From positions 33,262,690-33,326,689 of the forward strand of contig NC_061771.1 in the NCBI RefSeq assembly GCF_022458985.1: DNA of 64,000 nt, in the 5' to 3' direction. This DNA is from Mugil cephalus (taxonomy: Eukaryota > Chordata > Actinopteri > Mugiliformes > Mugilidae). Positions 18,722 to 62,312 of this stretch are shown one piece after another. Position 1 is the stretch's first letter. The number at the start of each line of letters is the position of its first letter. Both the position numbers and the translations under genes were made by a program. The notes under the pieces are model-generated. The model was given only the letters and a program-made list of their open reading frames with translations, was not told the origin of the DNA and ran no database searches.

Positions 18722-19283
18722 AAAAAAATAATCAGACTCTAACAGGAGAACTTAAGTTCATGTAAACACGTTACTGTGATTAAAGTCTGAGTTCTCATTA
18801 TTATTGAGTCGCTCAGATAATGTGATTGAATCAGAGTTTTCATTGGATGATGCGTGTGCGCATGCTCCAGCACCGCTGCGCTGGCGCGTGACCCCGGAAC
18901 AAAAACGTCCAAGAAGCCGATCATAGAAGAAGAAGAAGAGAAACGGAGCCGTCTGAGGGACAGCGCGGATCTTACCTGCACCAGAAATAACACGAAGATT
19001 ACGTACAAGATTAAAAATGTTCTATTATCCGTCTGGTTGTTGTTTAAATGTCTGACACATGAACGACTCTAGTTTATTATATCATGTAATAGATCAACCA
19101 GAAATCGGGCCGTATTAACGTGGTATTAACCTGCTGAAAAGACACGTATCGCCCCCTAGTGTGGAGGAGGAGAACAGTTATTAGATTTTCTCCGCTGCAT
19201 GTAAACTGGGACAAGGACTGAAAGTCAGAAAGTAGAGTTTAGAGCAAAGCTCCATTAATCTCTGCATGTAAACGCTCTGAGTG
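18722..19283 (-). mobile_element. Non-autonomous inverted-repeat element, copy 2
   Basis: Reverse-complement relative of the 444-1044 element. The shared sequence runs from about 18727 to the terminal motif TTTACATGC (on the reverse strand) at the right end, where both copies share the end sequence CACTCAGAGCGTTTACATGC. The opposite end is truncated or diverged and lacks a clear terminal repeat. It keeps the CTCF-like core (19148-19161) on the opposite strand. The shared minus-strand frame 18739-19008 begins like that of copy 1, then shifts. Confidence 0.75.
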
Positions 19284-21989: not shown

Positions 21990-23549
21990 GGGCATAATCC
22001 TAAAAGGATTGGAAGCCCCCCCCATCAGAGTGAGTAACTCCCTCCACACAGTCTCTCTGGGGTGATGGGTACTGGATGGGGTCAGTTGGTTTCGTGGCTC
22101 TGGTGTCTGATTTCTCCCCCCTCCTCCCTTATTGTTTGCGTTCTTAATGAGGGGGGCGGGCCCACGGGGCCTGTGATTGACAGCTGCATGCTCCCTCCTG
22201 TCTGTACTGTACTTGACTGTGGATGACAAGTCGTTTCTCAGCTTTCATGACGACGCTGTAAAGAAACACCGGCGCTGGTGACACGCTGTTAAACACGCAC
22301 ACCTGAACCTCGACGGAGTGAAACCGGCTGCATGACAGTGACTGAAGGAACCCGGGAGAACCCTCGGTTCTTACACTGCATGGGAAAATGTGTCTGAGCA
22401 ATAAAACACAACTTATCTCCTGTGCTTCCTGAACGTCTCCTCATCCAAATGAACATTTTTCTAAGATTTATCTCCTCTTGTACCGAGCTCTTGATATTTG
22501 TTCGTACCTGATGAAACAAAGACTCAGCTACTAAATCAGAGACACATCTAGTCTAGAAACGACCAGAACTAGGTCAGAAATATTAGTATTAGACTCAGGA
22601 CTGAGTTTATTAGAAACTGGAACTGGTCCAAACTGTGTGTGTTTAGGTTCAGGGTTAATGTTTCAGACATTCTCCTAAAATCTCTGATTTCATCATTTTC
22701 ACTTTATAATGAACGCGTGAAGTTCGCTGGATACACCCCCCACTGTCTGTCCACTGTCTCTGTCCACTGTCTCTGTCCACTGTCTGTCCACTGTCTCTGT
22801 CCACTGTCTGTCCACTGTCTCTGTCCACTGTCTCTGTCCACTGTCTGTCCACTGTCTCTGTCCACTGTCTCTGTCCACTGTCTCTGTCCACTGTCTGTCC
22901 ACTGTCTCTGTCCACTGTCTGTCCACTGTCTGTCCACTGTCTGTCCACTGTCTCTGTCCACTGTCTGTTCACTGTCTCTGTCCACTGTCTCTGTCCACTG
23001 TCTGTCCACTGTCTCTGTCCACTGTCTGTCCACTGTCTGTCCACTGTCTCTGTCCACATGTAGCAGCAGAACAACGAACACAAGCTTCTACAAGGACTAA
23101 AATAAAACGAGTGAATAAAGTAAAAGCTGTGAACATTCAGAAAATCATAGATCACAAACATCCAGACTTCAACATGTGTTTAAAAGTTCTCTTTCACTTT
23201 AAACCTTTTAAAATGCTGGTTTTAAAGACACATCCCTGTAGGAGACATGTAGAGTACAGCCTGGACACAGAGGACACAGAGTGGACTGTAGCTCATGAGT
23301 TTTGTTTGGCTGCGTTTAAACGTGAACATAAACAGAATAAAAAGGTCTGAGCTGCGTCTCGTTTGATGGAGACGTTTTTAGGCCTCACAGAAAGAAAAGG
23401 CCTCGAACGGTCGAACGTCTACGTGTGTAGTTTTACTTTTTAATGCCGATGATGTAACAAATAAAGGCCATAAATGATGACATTCACTCACAGTCTGAGA
23501 CACAATCAACCACAAACCACAGTCTAACCGTAGACGTGAAGAGAACACA

Positions 23550-26880: not shown

Positions 26881-27663
26881 CAGAACAAATGTCAGCGGAC
26901 AATATAGAACACAGAAGTTATTTATAAAAATGAACGAATAAATTACAAGTAGAGCAGCAGTAAACTGTTTGGAGGCGTAACTGAGTCTGGAGGTGGAAAC
27001 TAAAAGCGGCCTCGCTGCGCTCAGACGCGCGTCCCAGCTGAGAAGTCTCGAGTGGCCGCGGCTCCACAGGTCCATTAATTGTGAGCTATTGAATTAATGA
27101 AGCGTAATGAAGATCCGGGTGATAACGGGCTGTTAAAAGCATGAACGTCCTGGAGAAAAGTCAAGTGTGACCAGTTAAACTCATTCCTGAGGCTCCTCTA
27201 AAAACGTTTATATTCCTTTTATTTATGTGTCAACAGTTAAACGCTGTTTAAATGAAACACACAGCGGATCAGTTAATGAACCAGTGTTCAGTCTCTACAC
27301 TGTTGTGTGTTTAAACGTGTCACCTGGAGGATTCTTATGGGAGCAAATGATCAAATAATCTCGGTATTTAAATCGGTTTATTTTAATCGCCCCAAATTTA
27401 AACTCAGGTTTTTCATAATAATGTATTTTATTTTTATTTATTTATTTATTTTTGCCGCGTTAAAGTCAAAGTTGTTGCAGCCTTGATGAGCTGTGTTGTC
27501 TATTATTCGTCGTTGATGTGTCTCCTGCAGCAGCTGATCCGATCCGAGCCGAACGCACCTGGTCACCGGGAGATCCGCGCCTCCTCCTCCGTCCAGACTC
27601 CGGTCCAGACTCCGGTCCCCCCTCCGCCCGTCCAGACTCCGGTCCCCCCTCCGCGCTTCGAGC

Positions 27664-30476
27664 ATGATGTCTTATCTCAAACAGGCCCCGTACGGGATGA
27701 ACGGGCTGGGCCTGAGCGGAGCTGCCATGGACCTGCTCCACCCGTCTGTGGGATACCCCGGTACGGCCCGAACAGACACAAACACGTCACAATGTTCAGG
27801 ATAAACAAATGTTCACATACATTTTATTTTACTTTTATTTCTGTGACATAGAAAACATGTCAAACTTAGACTGCGTGCGCATGACTGAGATCTGTTATTG
27901 TTGCATGTAATTCTTCTTTAATATTTCTCTAATCTGGTCGTTTAGTATGAGGAGTAGGATTAATGTTTCCAAGAGTTAAAACAAGCTGCTAATTTTATTT
28001 TTTAATTTTTTAATAACTGACTCTTAAATGTGCGCCAATCTCTCGACTTTGCGTTTAAACTGCGCCAACGTGAAAACAGATGAGTCCGTGTTTTTGAAAT
28101 ATTCTCATAGCAAGGCCTGTGTCACTTTTATTTAATGATACGTTTCATAAGTAAATGTTCTAAAATGTGGGAATAAAGAGGCCGCAAAAATACAGATGTG
28201 TTTATAAAAAAGAAAAGAAAAGAAAAGAAAAGAAAAGAAAAGAAAAGAAAAGAAAAGAAAAGAAAAGAAAAGAGACCTTTGCGCACAGAGCTCACGGCCA
28301 CATTCTTGCTGTATAATAACATATGATGGAATATTAAAATGGAATATAAAAAATAAGAATTGTTTTGTTTGTTTGCTTTTCCCTTTGGTCGCAGGGAACC
28401 CGCGGAAGCAGCGCCGGGAGCGAACCACCTTCACCCGGACGCAGCTGGACATTCTGGAGTCGCTTTTCGCTAAGACGCGCTACCCCGACATCTTCATGAG
28501 GGAGGAGGTGGCGCTCAAAATCAACCTGCCCGAGTCCCGAGTCCAGGTCAGCAAGTCACAGAAACCGCTTCATGCGCCAGGAATGTTGTAACCAGGCAGG
28601 AAGAGTCAGGACGAATCATGGCGCGTAGATACTCAGGACGTTTTTCACTAAAAACAACAATAATCACTTTGTATTTGTGGTAAATAATTGGATGTTGAGG
28701 TGATGTTTTGACAGACGGTGAAGCAAAAGGTGACAGAGATGTAGAAATGAGTTTTGGAGGCTCAGGCCTCTGAATGAAAAATGTTCAGCTATTATTGATC
28801 AAGTAGAGACAAGTCTTTAATGAAAGGGGAGCGTTTGGCTGAGCTCAGGCTCAGTGAACAAGCAGCTTTTGATGCGCTGAGCTTTCTTTAGAAAACGCTC
28901 TGAAGGCTTTTCCATGGCGGCTTTATCGGCCTCTGCTGGGCTTAAAGCTGCAATTATGGCCGCTGCTTCTCCGTTTACTGCTGCGGCCCGGGCCTGTGTC
29001 ACCGCCGGCACAGGAGACGCTGTTATCACACGGGTCATTACTCTACTGCTAATTATTTAAATATACGCAGAATTAAAAGTATTCATGTTGTAAACACTTT
29101 TAAAAACTTTAATGTGGTCGTGGCCAGTGATTTCAGTTCGTGGAAGATGCAGCCTTCACATAAATAAATGAATAAAATTAAAGGCACGATTCATCTTCCT
29201 GGTGTTTCCACATGTTGAGTCCAGATCAAATCAATCCAGAGGTTCAAATAGTATTTAGGTCTATGAGAGGGATGAACAGGCTGGTTTATATACAATGAGT
29301 GACTGAGCTACTATGAACATATTGTACAGATGGATTAAATGTTTAAACATGTTAAATAATTTCCCTTTAAAAAGCTCTATGAGTTACTGGGACGGTTATG
29401 ACACCGTGTTTCTTCACATCCTCACTCTCCTGAAAACAACTATGGGTCAGACTTAAAGGACTCACACTGAGATATTCTCCAGTGAACAGTACTGTCTCCT
29501 CCGTGGTGGGAGGGGCTTAACGGGGCTGCTGTGTTTAACTCCACAAACCCATGAAGTGAAAGTAAAACCTTAGAATAAACTGCACTGATCTTTTCTTTGT
29601 GCTGAAAGCTGAAGTAAAAAGTGGGAGGTGAAAGGTGAGGGACATGTGTGGCTCACCGGTGACCCTCTGACCTGTCCCCTTCCTCAGGTCTGGTTTAAAA
29701 ACCGACGAGCCAAGTGTCGGCAGCAGCAGCAGAGCAGCAGCAGCAGCTCCAAGGTCAAACCCATGAAGAAGAAGTCGTCTCCGACCAGAGAGAGCACTGG
29801 TTCAGAGAGCAGCGGTCAGTTCACCCCCCCGGCCGTGTCCAGCTCCTCCTCCGCTACCTCCTCCTCCTCGTCCTCCTCCACGTCCTCGTCCTCCGTCTCC
29901 TCTGGTCTGATTAGCAGCTCTACCTCCGTCACCGCTCCGGTGTCGTCCATCTGGAGCCCGGCACCCATCTCCCCGGCCCCGGCCCCCGCCGCTCTCCCGG
30001 ACCCGGCCGCCCCCACCAGTGCGTCCTGCATGCAGCGCTCCGTGTCCTCGTCCTCCTCCGCTGGAGGGACGCCGTCCTACCCCGTGTCCTACGGCCAAAC
30101 GGCGGCGGCCTACGGTCAGGGCTACCCCGCCTCCGCATCCGGCTCCTACTTTGGGGGCGTGGAGTGCGGCTCGTACCTGGCACCCATGCACTCCCACCAC
30201 CACCCGCACCACCCCCACCAGCTCAGCCCCATGACGGGCAGCTCCATGTCAGGACACCCCCACCACCACATCGGCCAGACAGCAGGACACCACCACCACC
30301 ACCACCACCCGCCACACCACCACCAGGCGTACAGCGCGCCCGGCCTCGCCTTCAACTCCACAGACTGTCTGGATTACAAAGAGCAGACGGCGGCTTCGGC
30401 CTGGAAGCTCAACTTCAACGCCTCCGACTGTTTGGACTACAAAGACCAGGCCTCGTGGCGTTTCCAAGTGCTGTGA
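27664..30476 (+). CDS. otx1: OTX1 homeobox transcription factor
   Basis: Coding exons are 27664-27760, 28395-28546 and 29688-30476 (345 codons; human OTX1 is about 354). All splice sites are GT-AG, and the start is the first of two adjacent ATGs, giving the family N-terminus MMSYLKQ. The product is a nuclear DNA-binding factor of the OTX family that patterns forebrain, midbrain and sense organs. The homeodomain covers about residues 38-97 and is split by intron 2 after residue 83; recognition residue 50 is Lys (WFKNRR, K87), giving bicoid-type TAATCC preference. A short Gln run follows, then a long Ser-rich stretch, the SIWSP motif near residue 169, a His-rich segment near 284-298, and the paired OTX-tail motifs with DCLDYK near 308 and 330, ending SWRFQVL. 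Tail and His-rich region favour OTX1 over OTX2 or CRX. Which fish duplicate it is cannot be told from sequence alone. Confidence 0.97.
28207..28272. repeat. (AAAAG)n microsatellite in otx1 intron 1
   Basis: About 13 AAAAG units, purine-only on the sense strand, about 120 bp before the homeobox exon. Confidence 0.95.
28800..29060. promoter_or_regulatory. Candidate regulatory tract in otx1 intron 2
   Basis: GC-richer low-repeat block between the two homeodomain exons, containing AAGCTGCAATTATGGCC and CTGCTAATTATTTAAA. The rest of the 1.1-kb intron shows nothing notable. Regulatory role is inference. Confidence 0.3.
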
Positions 30477-35791: not shown

Positions 35792-36500
35792 AGTGACCTC
35801 CACACTGGTCGCAGTGACCTCCACACTGGTCCCAGTGACTCCCACACTGGTCCCAGTGATCTCCACACTGGTCCCAGTGATGCCCACACTGTCAGTGTCA
35901 TAGATAATGTTTTTCTCGTGACTAGATCATAGTCCATAATCGTGTGTTATTGTCCGTGCTCCACACTGGTCCCAGTGACCTCCACACTGGTCCCAGTGAC
36001 TCCCACACTGGTCCCAGTGATCTCCAAACTGGTCCCAGTGACTCCTAAACTAGTCCCAGTGACTCCCACACTAGTCCCAGTGACTCCCACACTGGTCCCA
36101 GTGACTCCCAAACTAGTCCCAGTGACTCCCACACTAGTCCCAGTGACTCCCAAACTAGTCCCAGTGACTCCCACACTGGTCCCAGTGACTCCCAAACTAG
36201 TCCCAGTGACTCCCAAACTAGTCCCAGTGACTCCCAAACTAGTCCCAGTGACCTCCACACTGATCCCAGTGATGCCCACACTGGTCCCAGTGACTCCCAA
36301 ACTAGTCCCAGTGACTCCCACACTAGTCCCAGTGACCTCCACACTAGTCCCAGTGACCTCCACACTGATCCCAGTGATGCCCACACTGGTCCCAGTGACC
36401 TCCACACTGGTCCCAGTGACCTCCACACTGATCCCAGTGATGCCCACACTGGTCCCAGTGACCTCCACACTGGTCCCAGTGACGCCCACACTGAACCAGC
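35792..36500. repeat. Minisatellite, 21-bp units in two blocks
   Basis: Tandem 21-bp units of the type CCCAGTGACTCCCACACTGGT with variants (ACCTCC, GATGCC, AAACTAGT). A left block at about 35792-35895 and a right block at about 35959-36497 are separated by about 60 bp of unique sequence. Units meet at ACTGGTCCCAGT, an inverted repeat. Because 21 is a multiple of three, frames stay open on both strands, giving spurious proteins up to 253 residues. Confidence 0.95.
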
Positions 36501-36532
36501 AAAACGCTCAAGCTCCCAGACCTCTGGTAGAA

Positions 36533-37555: not shown

Positions 37556-37865
37556 ACGAATTATTGCCTTAATCAGACTCTAACAGGAGAACTTAAGTGC
37601 ACGTAAACATGATTCTCATTATCCGATTGAGACGCCCAGATAATGGGAATGGAATCTGAGTTTTTATCAGATAATGCGTGTGTTCATGCTCCACCACCGC
37701 TGCGCTGGCGTGTGACCCCGGAACAAAAACATCCAAGAAGATGATCATAGAAGAAGAAGAAGAGAAATGGAGCCGTCTGAGGGACAGCGCGGATCTTACC
37801 TGCACCAGAAGTAACGCGAACATTATGTACATGATTTAAAAAATGTACTGTTATCCGTCTGGTTA
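37556..37865 (-). mobile_element. Non-autonomous inverted-repeat element, copy 3 (truncated)
   Basis: Reverse-complement relative of the 444-1044 element, covering only its right half. Shared landmarks are AGACTCTAACAGGAGAACTTAAGT, the GCTGCGCTGGCG core, GACCCCGGAACAAAAAC and TTATCCGTCTGGTT. It ends abruptly at about 37865, so the CTCF-like part and one terminal repeat are missing. Confidence 0.75.
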
Positions 37866-51936: not shown

Positions 51937-58053
<6,117 letters not shown>

Positions 58054-58119
58054 CTGTCGCCTCCTGCTGGCCAACTGCAGCACTTAGATTCCCTGAAGGC
58101 TGGCTGCTCTCGGCTCTGA
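58054..58119 (+). other. mdh1: In-frame mdh1 stop-readthrough extension with peroxisomal signal
   Basis: If the TGA at 58051-58053 is read through, translation continues for 21 sense codons to a TGA at 58117-58119. The last residues are Gly-Cys-Ser-Arg-Leu, and the final SRL is a good type-1 peroxisomal targeting signal. Mammalian MDH1 is known to make such an isoform through a leaky UGA-CUA stop. Here the context is TGA CTG, differing at the third base. Readthrough itself cannot be seen in DNA. Confidence 0.7.
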
Positions 58120-58348
58120 AGACGACTCCATCATCACAGTCACCGTCCGAGCTGATGGCTGCGTGTCACCTCTGTGTGTGTGTGAGTGTGTGTGTGTTTG
58201 TGTGTTTGTGTGAATGTGTCGAGGCCAAACCTGTTCAGTGACCACGACCTGGCCTCCTCCATCTGCAGAACACCCAGAGAACCTCTCTGTTGGTACATGG
58301 TAACACAGACTAGCTGTCCTCCAACTCTTAACGGTTCCCACCAATAAA
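58120..58348 (+). terminator. mdh1: mdh1 3' UTR and poly(A) signal
   Basis: Short 3' UTR with a TG-rich stretch near 58173-58215, ending at AATAAA (58343-58348). Cleavage probably follows within about 30 bp. Confidence 0.75.
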
Positions 58349-58479
58349 AGTACAAGGAAACCCACCGACCAGACTCCAGCCTCTTCCTTCCCGCTCTCTT
58401 TTGTCGTCACCATTCAGTTTGAAGATGTTTCTAACACAAACACCACAGATAAGTCATTAGTATGATAATAAATAAATGA

Positions 58480-58645
58480 TTCCCTTATTGATCCATCTCT
58501 GCATTCTGACCCATCCATTAGTTTGTACAGTTGGAGCCGTGTCTGGGGAAAACTGGGGGTTGGGGGTTTGCTCAGGGCACTGCAGCCATGGACGGGGTGG
58601 GAGGTGAACCTGTGACCCTCTAACTGCTACTCCACAGCTCCCAAA
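58480..58645 (+). mobile_element. Teleost interspersed repeat, diverged fragment
   Basis: Landmarks GGGGGTTTGCTCAGGGCACT, CAGCCATGGACGG and a 3' GTGACCCTCTAACTGCTACT match a very common fish interspersed repeat (typical text: 'ttgctcaagggcacttcagccatgg'). Non-coding and diverged. Family assignment is from motif memory. Confidence 0.55.
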
Positions 58646-58669
58646 TAATACTAATACCAATACTAGAGG

Positions 58670-58800
58670 GAGGAGCTACACCACTATACATCACTTTACA
58701 CCACTAAATACTACTATATACATCATTATATACCATTATACACACCACTAAATACTACCATACTATAGACCACTAAATACTACTATACACTAAGACAACA
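58670..58800. repeat. Low-complexity CACTAAATACTACTATA tandem repeat
   Basis: Imperfect 15-25 bp units containing ACCACTAAATACTAC and TATACA. No coding role. Confidence 0.8.
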
Positions 58801-59220: not shown

Positions 59221-59345
59221 ACCAATCAGCGCCGCGCTTTAAGGCTTGTCACGGCGCTGCGTCATGACGCCGGTGTGGATCATGCGTCATGACGCCGGTG
59301 TGGATCATGCGTCATGACGCCGGTGTGGATCTGAGGCTGCAGAGA
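59221..59345 (+). promoter_or_regulatory. ugp2: Probable ugp2 promoter with triplicated palindrome
   Basis: A CCAAT box (ACCAATCAG at 59221) and CpG-rich sequence precede three perfect 25-bp repeats (starts 59259, 59284 and 59309). Each contains GCGTCATGACGC, a perfect 12-bp palindrome with two outward TGACG half-sites like those bound by ATF/CREB-type bZIP factors. A likely leader exon follows and ends at about 59440, where CTAAAA is followed by the donor GTGAGT (59441). Promoter assignment is from composition and position. Confidence 0.55.
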
Positions 59346-60545: not shown

Positions 60546-60724
60546 AGCCCGTGGGTGGACGGGTGTGTTAGTGTGTTAGTGTGTTGGTGGTGTGTGTTAG
60601 TGTGTTGGTGGTGTGTTGTTTGTGTGTTGTGTGCCATATAACAGCACACTGTCGTATAAATAATAAATAAATAAGTGAACCTGTAGTGTGTGTTAGTGTA
60701 TTCAGCTGAATGTGGAGCTTCTGA

Positions 60725-61362
60725 AGACTGTTGTCCAGTGTTAACCAGCACTGGATGCCACTGGTTCACACTGGTTAATGTTAACCAGTGTGAACCAGTG
60801 TTGACCAGCACTGGATGCCACTGGTTAACACTGGTTAATGTTAACCAGTGGAAACAGTGTGAAACAGTGTTAACCAGCACTGGATGCCACTGGTTCACAC
60901 TGGTTAATGTTAACCAGTGGAACCAGTGTGAAACAGTGTTAACCAGCACTGGATGCCACTGGTTCACACTGGTTAATGTTAACCAGTGTGAACCAGTGTT
61001 GACCAGCACTGGATGCCACTGGTTAACACTGGTTAATGTTAACCAGTGTTAACCAGCACTGGATGCCACTGGTAGCACTGTTAGCACTGGTTAATGCTAA
61101 CCAGTGCTAACCAGTGTTAACCAGCACTGGATGCCACTGGTTCACACTGGTTAATGTTAACCAGTGGAACCAGTGTGAAACAGTGTTAACCAGCACTGGA
61201 TGCCACTGGTTCACACTGGTTAATGTTAACCAGTGTGAACCAGTGTTGACCAGCACTGGATGCCACTGGTTAACACTGGTTAATGTTAACCAGTGTTAAC
61301 CAGCACTGGATGCCACTGGTAGCACTGGTTAGCACTGGTTAATGTTAACCAGTGCCAGAAGT
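60725..61362. repeat. Minisatellite of inverted-repeat units in the ugp2 leader intron
   Basis: About ten units of roughly 55-67 bp, each with AGCACTGGATGCCACTGG followed by CACTGGTTAATGTTAACC and AGTG. CACTGGTT and AACCAGTG face each other repeatedly, so every unit can fold into a hairpin. A segment of about 350 bp appears duplicated (compare 60860-61060 with 61110-61310). Long minus-strand and plus-strand frames here are artefacts. Confidence 0.9.
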
Positions 61363-61925: not shown

Positions 61926-62312
61926 CGTTAGTGTTTAATGTAACTTGAGCTGTGATTGGTCCTCGTTAGTGTTTAAATGTAACCAGAGCTGTGATTGGTC
62001 CTCGTTAGTGTTTAAATGGAACCAGAGCTGTGATTGGTCCTCGTTAGTGTTTAAATGTAACTTGAGCTGTGATTGGTCCTCGTTAGTGTTTAAATGTAAC
62101 TTGAGCTGTGATTGGTCCTCGTTAGTGTTTAAATGTAACCAGAGCTGTGATTGGTCCTCGTTAGTGTTTAAATGGAACCAGAGCTGTGATTGGTCCTCGT
62201 TAGTGTTTAATGGAACCAGAGCTGTGATTGGTCCTCGTTAGTGTTTAATGGAACCAGAGCTGTGATTGGTCCTCGTTAGTGTTTAATGGAACCAGAGCTG
62301 TGATTGGTCCTC
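61926..62312. repeat. Minisatellite of 38-39 bp units, each with an inverted CCAAT box
   Basis: Ten tandem units contain GAGCTGTGATTGGTCCTC followed by GTTAGTGTTTAAATG. The first seven repeat every 38-39 bp and the last ones are a little shorter (TTTAATGG). TGATTGG in each unit is an inverted CCAAT (NF-Y-type) core. The array lies in the presumed ugp2 leader intron. Confidence 0.95.

Follow-up and report, generated by a model that had tools for sequence, protein, structure and literature searches.

Vertebrate cytosolic malate dehydrogenase (MDH1) gives rise to a peroxisomal form, MDH1x, through readthrough of its UGA stop codon (Hofhuis et al. 2016, PMC5133446; Stiebler et al. 2014, PMC4207609). 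According to PMC5133446, MDH1x ends in CRL in mammals and in SRL in non-mammals, although amphibia are excepted in one passage; in the same paper, SRL at the end of zebra finch MDH1x is shown to confer peroxisomal targeting, and the UGA of human MDH1 is described as decoded as tryptophan or arginine. A cryptic PTS1 of MDH1 has been reported as far as Hydra (PMC4207609), and the readthrough isoform Mdh1x of zebrafish Mdh1aa, NP_001303854.1, likewise ends in SRL (PMC8919083). The mammalian enzyme form LDHBx (Schueren et al. 2014, PMC4359377) is related in that readthrough of UGA CUA G likewise reveals a PTS1 hidden behind the stop of a cytosolic dehydrogenase. It concerns another enzyme, however, and LDHBx is reported to be absent from non-mammalian species (PMC5133446).

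The locus that we describe here lies in a stretch of 64,000 nucleotides of Mugil cephalus DNA, hereafter the window, which belongs to contig C2 of a genome of 634.8 Mb in 24 contigs. The gene under study encodes cytosolic malate dehydrogenase: the NCBIfam model TIGR01758 MDH_euk_cyt matches with 540.9 bits (cut-off 470.4), and the best PDB match of the product is the cytoplasmic malate dehydrogenase 9fqr (E 6.3e-180). Eight exons spliced at AG/GT borders give 332 uninterrupted residues (Table 1); the start-codon exon is not among them. The residues FLSQ directly precede the TGA at 58051-58053, and since the two best PDB sequences align up to residue 331 of the 332, the normal C-terminus of the enzyme is at this TGA. 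It had been claimed that the frame remains open for 21 codons behind this stop and ends in SRL, and both the coordinates and the reading turned out to be exact (second TGA at 58117-58119). The AATAAA motif further downstream, which is a motif match only, implies that the extension should belong to the mature 3' UTR.

Table 1. Features of mdh1 and of its in-frame extension in the window
Feature	Position	Strand	Basis
mdh1 first coding exon found (AEPIRV...; start-codon exon not located)	52571..52669	+	AG/GT exon assembly, family match
mdh1 coding exon	52984..53080	+	exon assembly
mdh1 coding exon	54093..54268	+	exon assembly
mdh1 coding exon	55537..55659	+	exon assembly
mdh1 coding exon	56316..56492	+	exon assembly
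mdh1 coding exon	57164..57277	+	exon assembly
mdh1 coding exon	57557..57646	+	exon assembly
mdh1 last coding exon, normal TGA stop included	57931..58053	+	exon assembly
Stop context, -10 to +13: CCTGTCCCAG TGA CTGTCGCCTC	58041..58063	+	comparison with human MDH1 (table in PMC4359377) and the C13 copy
In-frame extension, 21 sense codons: LSPPAGQLQHLDSLKAGCSRL	58054..58116	+	sequence; comparison with the C13 duplicate
PTS1-type tripeptide Ser-Arg-Leu	58108..58116	+	sequence; SRL function from zebra finch MDH1x (PMC5133446)
Second stop, TGA	58117..58119	+	sequence
AATAAA, likely polyadenylation signal	58343..58348	+	motif match only

With vertebrate MDH1x as described by Hofhuis et al. and Stiebler et al., the window gene shares the enzyme, the UGA stop, a short in-frame tail with a PTS1 and the SRL typical of non-mammals; with zebrafish Mdh1x (PMC8919083) it shares a teleost mdh1, a UGA stop and the SRL end. 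The original prediction was that hidden peroxisomal targeting, if real here, extends to this fish. That this would be new for fish is not supported, since the device had been reported for non-mammalian vertebrates (PMC5133446) and for zebrafish Mdh1aa (PMC8919083), and by itself the window gene adds one more fish to the known MDH1x list. The main idea is thus known already. What is specific here is that the leaky stop context, retained by a duplicate of the gene on contig C13, is altered in the window copy, among others at -3, +6, +7 and +9, which published reporter assays link to readthrough.

The locus differs from the described cases in several respects. Its stop context is TGA CTG T, and 21 codons follow the stop, versus 18 in human MDH1x (19 residues with the recoded stop; PMC5133446). 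The second stop is UGA, whereas it is UAA in zebrafish Mdh1aa (PMC8919083). Moreover, there are two gene copies in this fish, one of which ends in ARL, an end that the available passages of PMC5133446 and PMC4207609 do not name for non-mammals. The SRL that is common to zebrafish Mdh1aa and the window gene gives no more than a weak hint that the window copy is mdh1aa. Duplicates that differ in both the stop context and the PTS1 end (CSRL versus DARL) were not found in print in a limited search of the open-access literature.

The second mdh1, of which a whole-genome DNA search found the last exon on C13, has all eight of these exons intact and of the same lengths as in the window copy. The two copies are identical at 285 of the 332 residues that these exons encode (286 of 333 with the stop), and 212 of 333 third codon positions match (stop counted). 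At both loci, mdh1 is followed on the same strand by a gene that, judging from its protein motifs, we take to be ugp2. Because the two loci have this mdh1-ugp2 pair in common, they are copies of one duplicated segment, so that the two mdh1 genes are very likely duplication partners; the segment very likely stems from the teleost genome duplication, as we infer. Upstream of the window mdh1, at 27538-30476, there is also a homeobox gene with a homeodomain and a His-rich C-terminal part, presumably otx1-like from its protein sequence motifs; the C13 sequence, which extends about 36 kb upstream of its mdh1, contained no match to it. The TGA of the C13 mdh1 is followed by the tail LDSAGPPHQHLDSTKTPDARL and then a stop; this tail also has 21 codons, and it ends in ARL.

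Compared without gaps, the two tails are identical at 9 of 21 residues. Three of the nine shared residues have identical codons and six have synonymous ones (CTG/CTA, GAT/GAC, TCC/AGC, AAG/AAA, CGG/CGC and CTC/CTG), and the other 12 codons differ non-synonymously. The aligned tail DNA has a BLOSUM score of 32 in frame 0, versus 4 and -3 in the other frames; this score was reached by 248 of 20000 shuffles of the alignment columns and by 12 of 200000 residue shuffles, and the nine identities by 107 of 20000 column shuffles. Counted by codon position, 11, 12 and 9 of 21 bases are identical, a codon-like pattern that is weak by itself, and conservation is poor over the first eight codons (10 of 24 bases). 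Ungapped DNA identity amounts to 32 of 63 bases in the tail and to 20 of 63 in an equally long stretch directly behind the second stop. In a gapped alignment, CTGCTGGCC of both copies is paired at a three-base shift, and gaps totalling three bases restore the frame. None of 2000 shuffles reached the local DNA similarity between stop and second stop; in the UTR beyond, the highest local similarity is that of a TG-repeat run, which 39 of 2000 shuffles reach. Apart from this run, the conservation, as read from the alignment, stops at the tail end, as a peptide predicts.

Thus, the suspicion that the extension is more than an open frame is borne out by the C13 duplicate, in which the tail is kept as protein with a PTS1-type end. 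It should be noted that this test of tail conservation concerns one gene pair within one genome, and that constraint on the C13 copy only, together with slow decay of the window copy, could contribute part of the conservation signal. Likewise, the longest identical DNA run between the tails, which has 11 bases, could be kept as a nucleotide element or for another non-peptide reason.

A conserved protein tail with a PTS1-type end in the duplicate makes a chance reading frame very unlikely, and the background points in the same direction. This background consists of all TGA triplets in all frames of both strands in 184 kb around both mdh1 genes, both mdh1 copies being left out. As regards its length, an open frame of 21 codons is unremarkable, since 110 of the 7925 downstream frames are exactly that long, and to this extent an accidental opening with an accidental SRL is conceivable. 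The end of the tail, however, is rare: closed tails ending in SRL, ARL or CRL occur after only 4 of the 7925 other TGA triplets, and it is also the duplicate's equal tail length and PTS1 class that stand against an accident. Tails ending in [SAC][KR][LM] follow 14 of the 7925 TGAs, and 80 have a tail that falls within the wider PTS1 list of Stiebler et al.; the 471 TGACT sites are followed by no SRL/ARL/CRL tail, no [SAC][KR][LM] tail and three tails of the wider list. On the strength of the duplicate gene and the background count, we reject a chance tail in the main, and grant it next to no probability. As a side control, an LDH-like gene (L014) has a TAA stop and a tail that ends in PRP, without a PTS1.

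The two copies also differ in the sequence around the stop codon. UGA CU constitutes the core readthrough motif, and an A at the next position stimulates readthrough further (PMC4207609). The window gene has the core but lacks the full UGA CUA G. The description of its context as one base off holds within the TGA CTA core; over the span from -10 to +13 it does not, since 15 of the 20 flanking positions differ from human MDH1 (TTCCTCTGCC TGA CTAGACAATG, table in PMC4359377), including -3, +6, +7, +8 and +9. The C13 copy, with the context CCTGGGAGAA TGA CTAGACTCTG, carries TGA CTA G, and its TGA CTAGAC is identical to that of human MDH1 (PMC4359377). Because CTAGAC at +4 to +9 is common to C13 and human MDH1, and the window gene has other bases than either at -3 and at +6 to +9, the CTGTCG of the window is most simply the derived state.

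Published reporter data bear on these differences. Human MDH1 gave 4.34% readthrough, which fell to 0.4-0.8%, still above background, upon changing +5 or +6, the replacing bases being unspecified in the available text (PMC5133446). In human reporters, G is frequent at -3, as is C at -5 and +9, in contexts of high efficiency; GA at -6/-5 is unfavourable, and changing G to C at -3 of human MDH1 lowered readthrough from 7.8% to 1.4% (PMC12233894). In the window context, -3 is C and +9 is G, but C at -5 has been retained. In the C13 context, -3 is G and +9 is C, but -6/-5 are GG, and judged from these bases it is not ideal for readthrough either. Since the window gene is without CUA G, G at -3 and C at +9, it should leak less than the C13 copy, and actual readthrough at its stop may be very low. 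A limited open-access search yielded no published readthrough value for UGA CUG, and neither CUG nor CTG appears in the main text of PMC12233894. We therefore group the window copy with the MDH1x tails but outside the UGA CUA G class, since the full context is what marks efficient readthrough and is no requirement for MDH1x.

Other routes to the SRL were also considered. Stimulation of readthrough by a stem-loop was rejected, because there is no fold signal downstream of the stop at either the window gene (z 1.39; a fold as good or better in 189 of 200 shuffles) or the C13 copy (z 0.11; 103 of 200), and no Rfam family matched in 57500-58800 at the gathering threshold; readthrough of human MDH1 needs no RNA structure (PMC5133446). 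Selenocysteine at the mdh1 UGA is unlikely, given that no Rfam family was found in 57500-58800. The SRL could, alternatively, be reached by splicing at a CAG acceptor inside the extension, with 58081 as the next exon base, in frame with the preceding exon: CTGCAG/CAC at 58075-58083 is acceptor-like and in phase 0, and CACCAG/CAC occupies the corresponding place in C13. Such splicing would cost the enzyme the last 40 residues of its normal C-terminus, and skipping the stop alone would require an intron of about 30 bases; in addition, the known MDH1 route is readthrough (PMC5133446). We regard this explanation as very improbable.

The reading that we favour, and hold with reasonably good confidence, is that the extension in the window is a real MDH1x tail in reduced use, and that most MDH1x comes from the C13 copy. 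The readthrough, import, relative rates and metabolic role that we infer for it would be as follows. At the mdh1 UGA, a few ribosomes would insert an amino acid (tryptophan or arginine, if human MDH1 is a guide), translate the 21 codons and stop at the next UGA. PEX5 binds proteins that end in a PTS1 and carries them into peroxisomes, and the extended subunit ending in SRL would be bound by it and imported in this way. In peroxisomes, malate dehydrogenase would help to balance NAD+ and NADH. The C13 copy, with a presumably strongly leaky UGA CUA G and its ARL tail, would be the likely main source of MDH1x; the window copy, with UGA CUG U and the SRL tail, would produce an extended form that is probably several times rarer. 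Either the window gene contributes little, or it contributes where it is strongly expressed, or the function is being lost.

The last of these would make the extension a fading relic: the leaky stop and the PTS1 tail would predate the duplication, the C13 copy would have kept the job, and the window copy would have lost the context, so that its SRL is barely used. Such a course would fit the CTAGAC shared by human MDH1 and C13, from which the window deviates at +6 to +9, as it does at -3, and the divergence of the first third of the tail. However, an open frame of equal length and a full SRL persist after the long divergence reflected in the third codon positions (212 of 333), and unconstrained sequence would be expected to lose both; furthermore, the change at +6 alone, with a base that the available text leaves unspecified, left 0.4-0.8% readthrough in human cells (PMC5133446). 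We consider a relic unlikely, and favour low-level use over decay because the frame, the length and the SRL have survived. It is also conceivable, but quite unlikely in our estimation, that the copies traded leak against signal after the duplication and so shared out the dose of peroxisomal malate dehydrogenase, C13 having the leaky stop with a presumably weaker Asp-Ala-Arg-Leu and the window copy the tighter stop with a presumably stronger Cys-Ser-Arg-Leu. Leak and signal would then evolve as separable dials that compensate for each other, perhaps with each gene serving different tissues.

The two duplicates, which have the same tail in different contexts within one genome, constitute a natural test of the evolutionary value of the base that follows UGA CU. 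Should the split turn out to hold in most teleosts, pairs of mdh1 genes could serve to quantify the co-evolution of PTS1 strength and readthrough rate, which has been raised as a question before for mammals versus other vertebrates (PMC5133446).

Some further observations concern the surroundings of the gene and the rest of the genome. Three head-to-tail copies of a 25-base unit, TGCGTCATGACGCCGGTGTGGATCA, lie between mdh1 and ugp2 at 59258-59330 (starts 59258, 59283 and 59308); they contain the CRE/ATF-like words CGTCA and TGACG, and are possibly promoter elements. On contig C11 (L009:922-2010; match 16607074-16607568) there is a full-length mdh2-like mitochondrial malate dehydrogenase with a presequence in a single uninterrupted frame, as an intron-less retrocopy would have; no intron-bearing mdh2 was among the six PF02866 matches, in a search that may miss split genes. 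In the window, several minisatellite-like arrays with more than one open frame, noted by eye in the list of open reading frames, are present at 22700-23100, 35950-36520, 53500-53800, 60690-61050 and 61935-62240. Finally, a dispersed repeat with the shared peptide FLDVFVPG... occurs in three related copies, at 659-976, 18739-19068 and 37593-37835, and has a match on C13 near 21464590.
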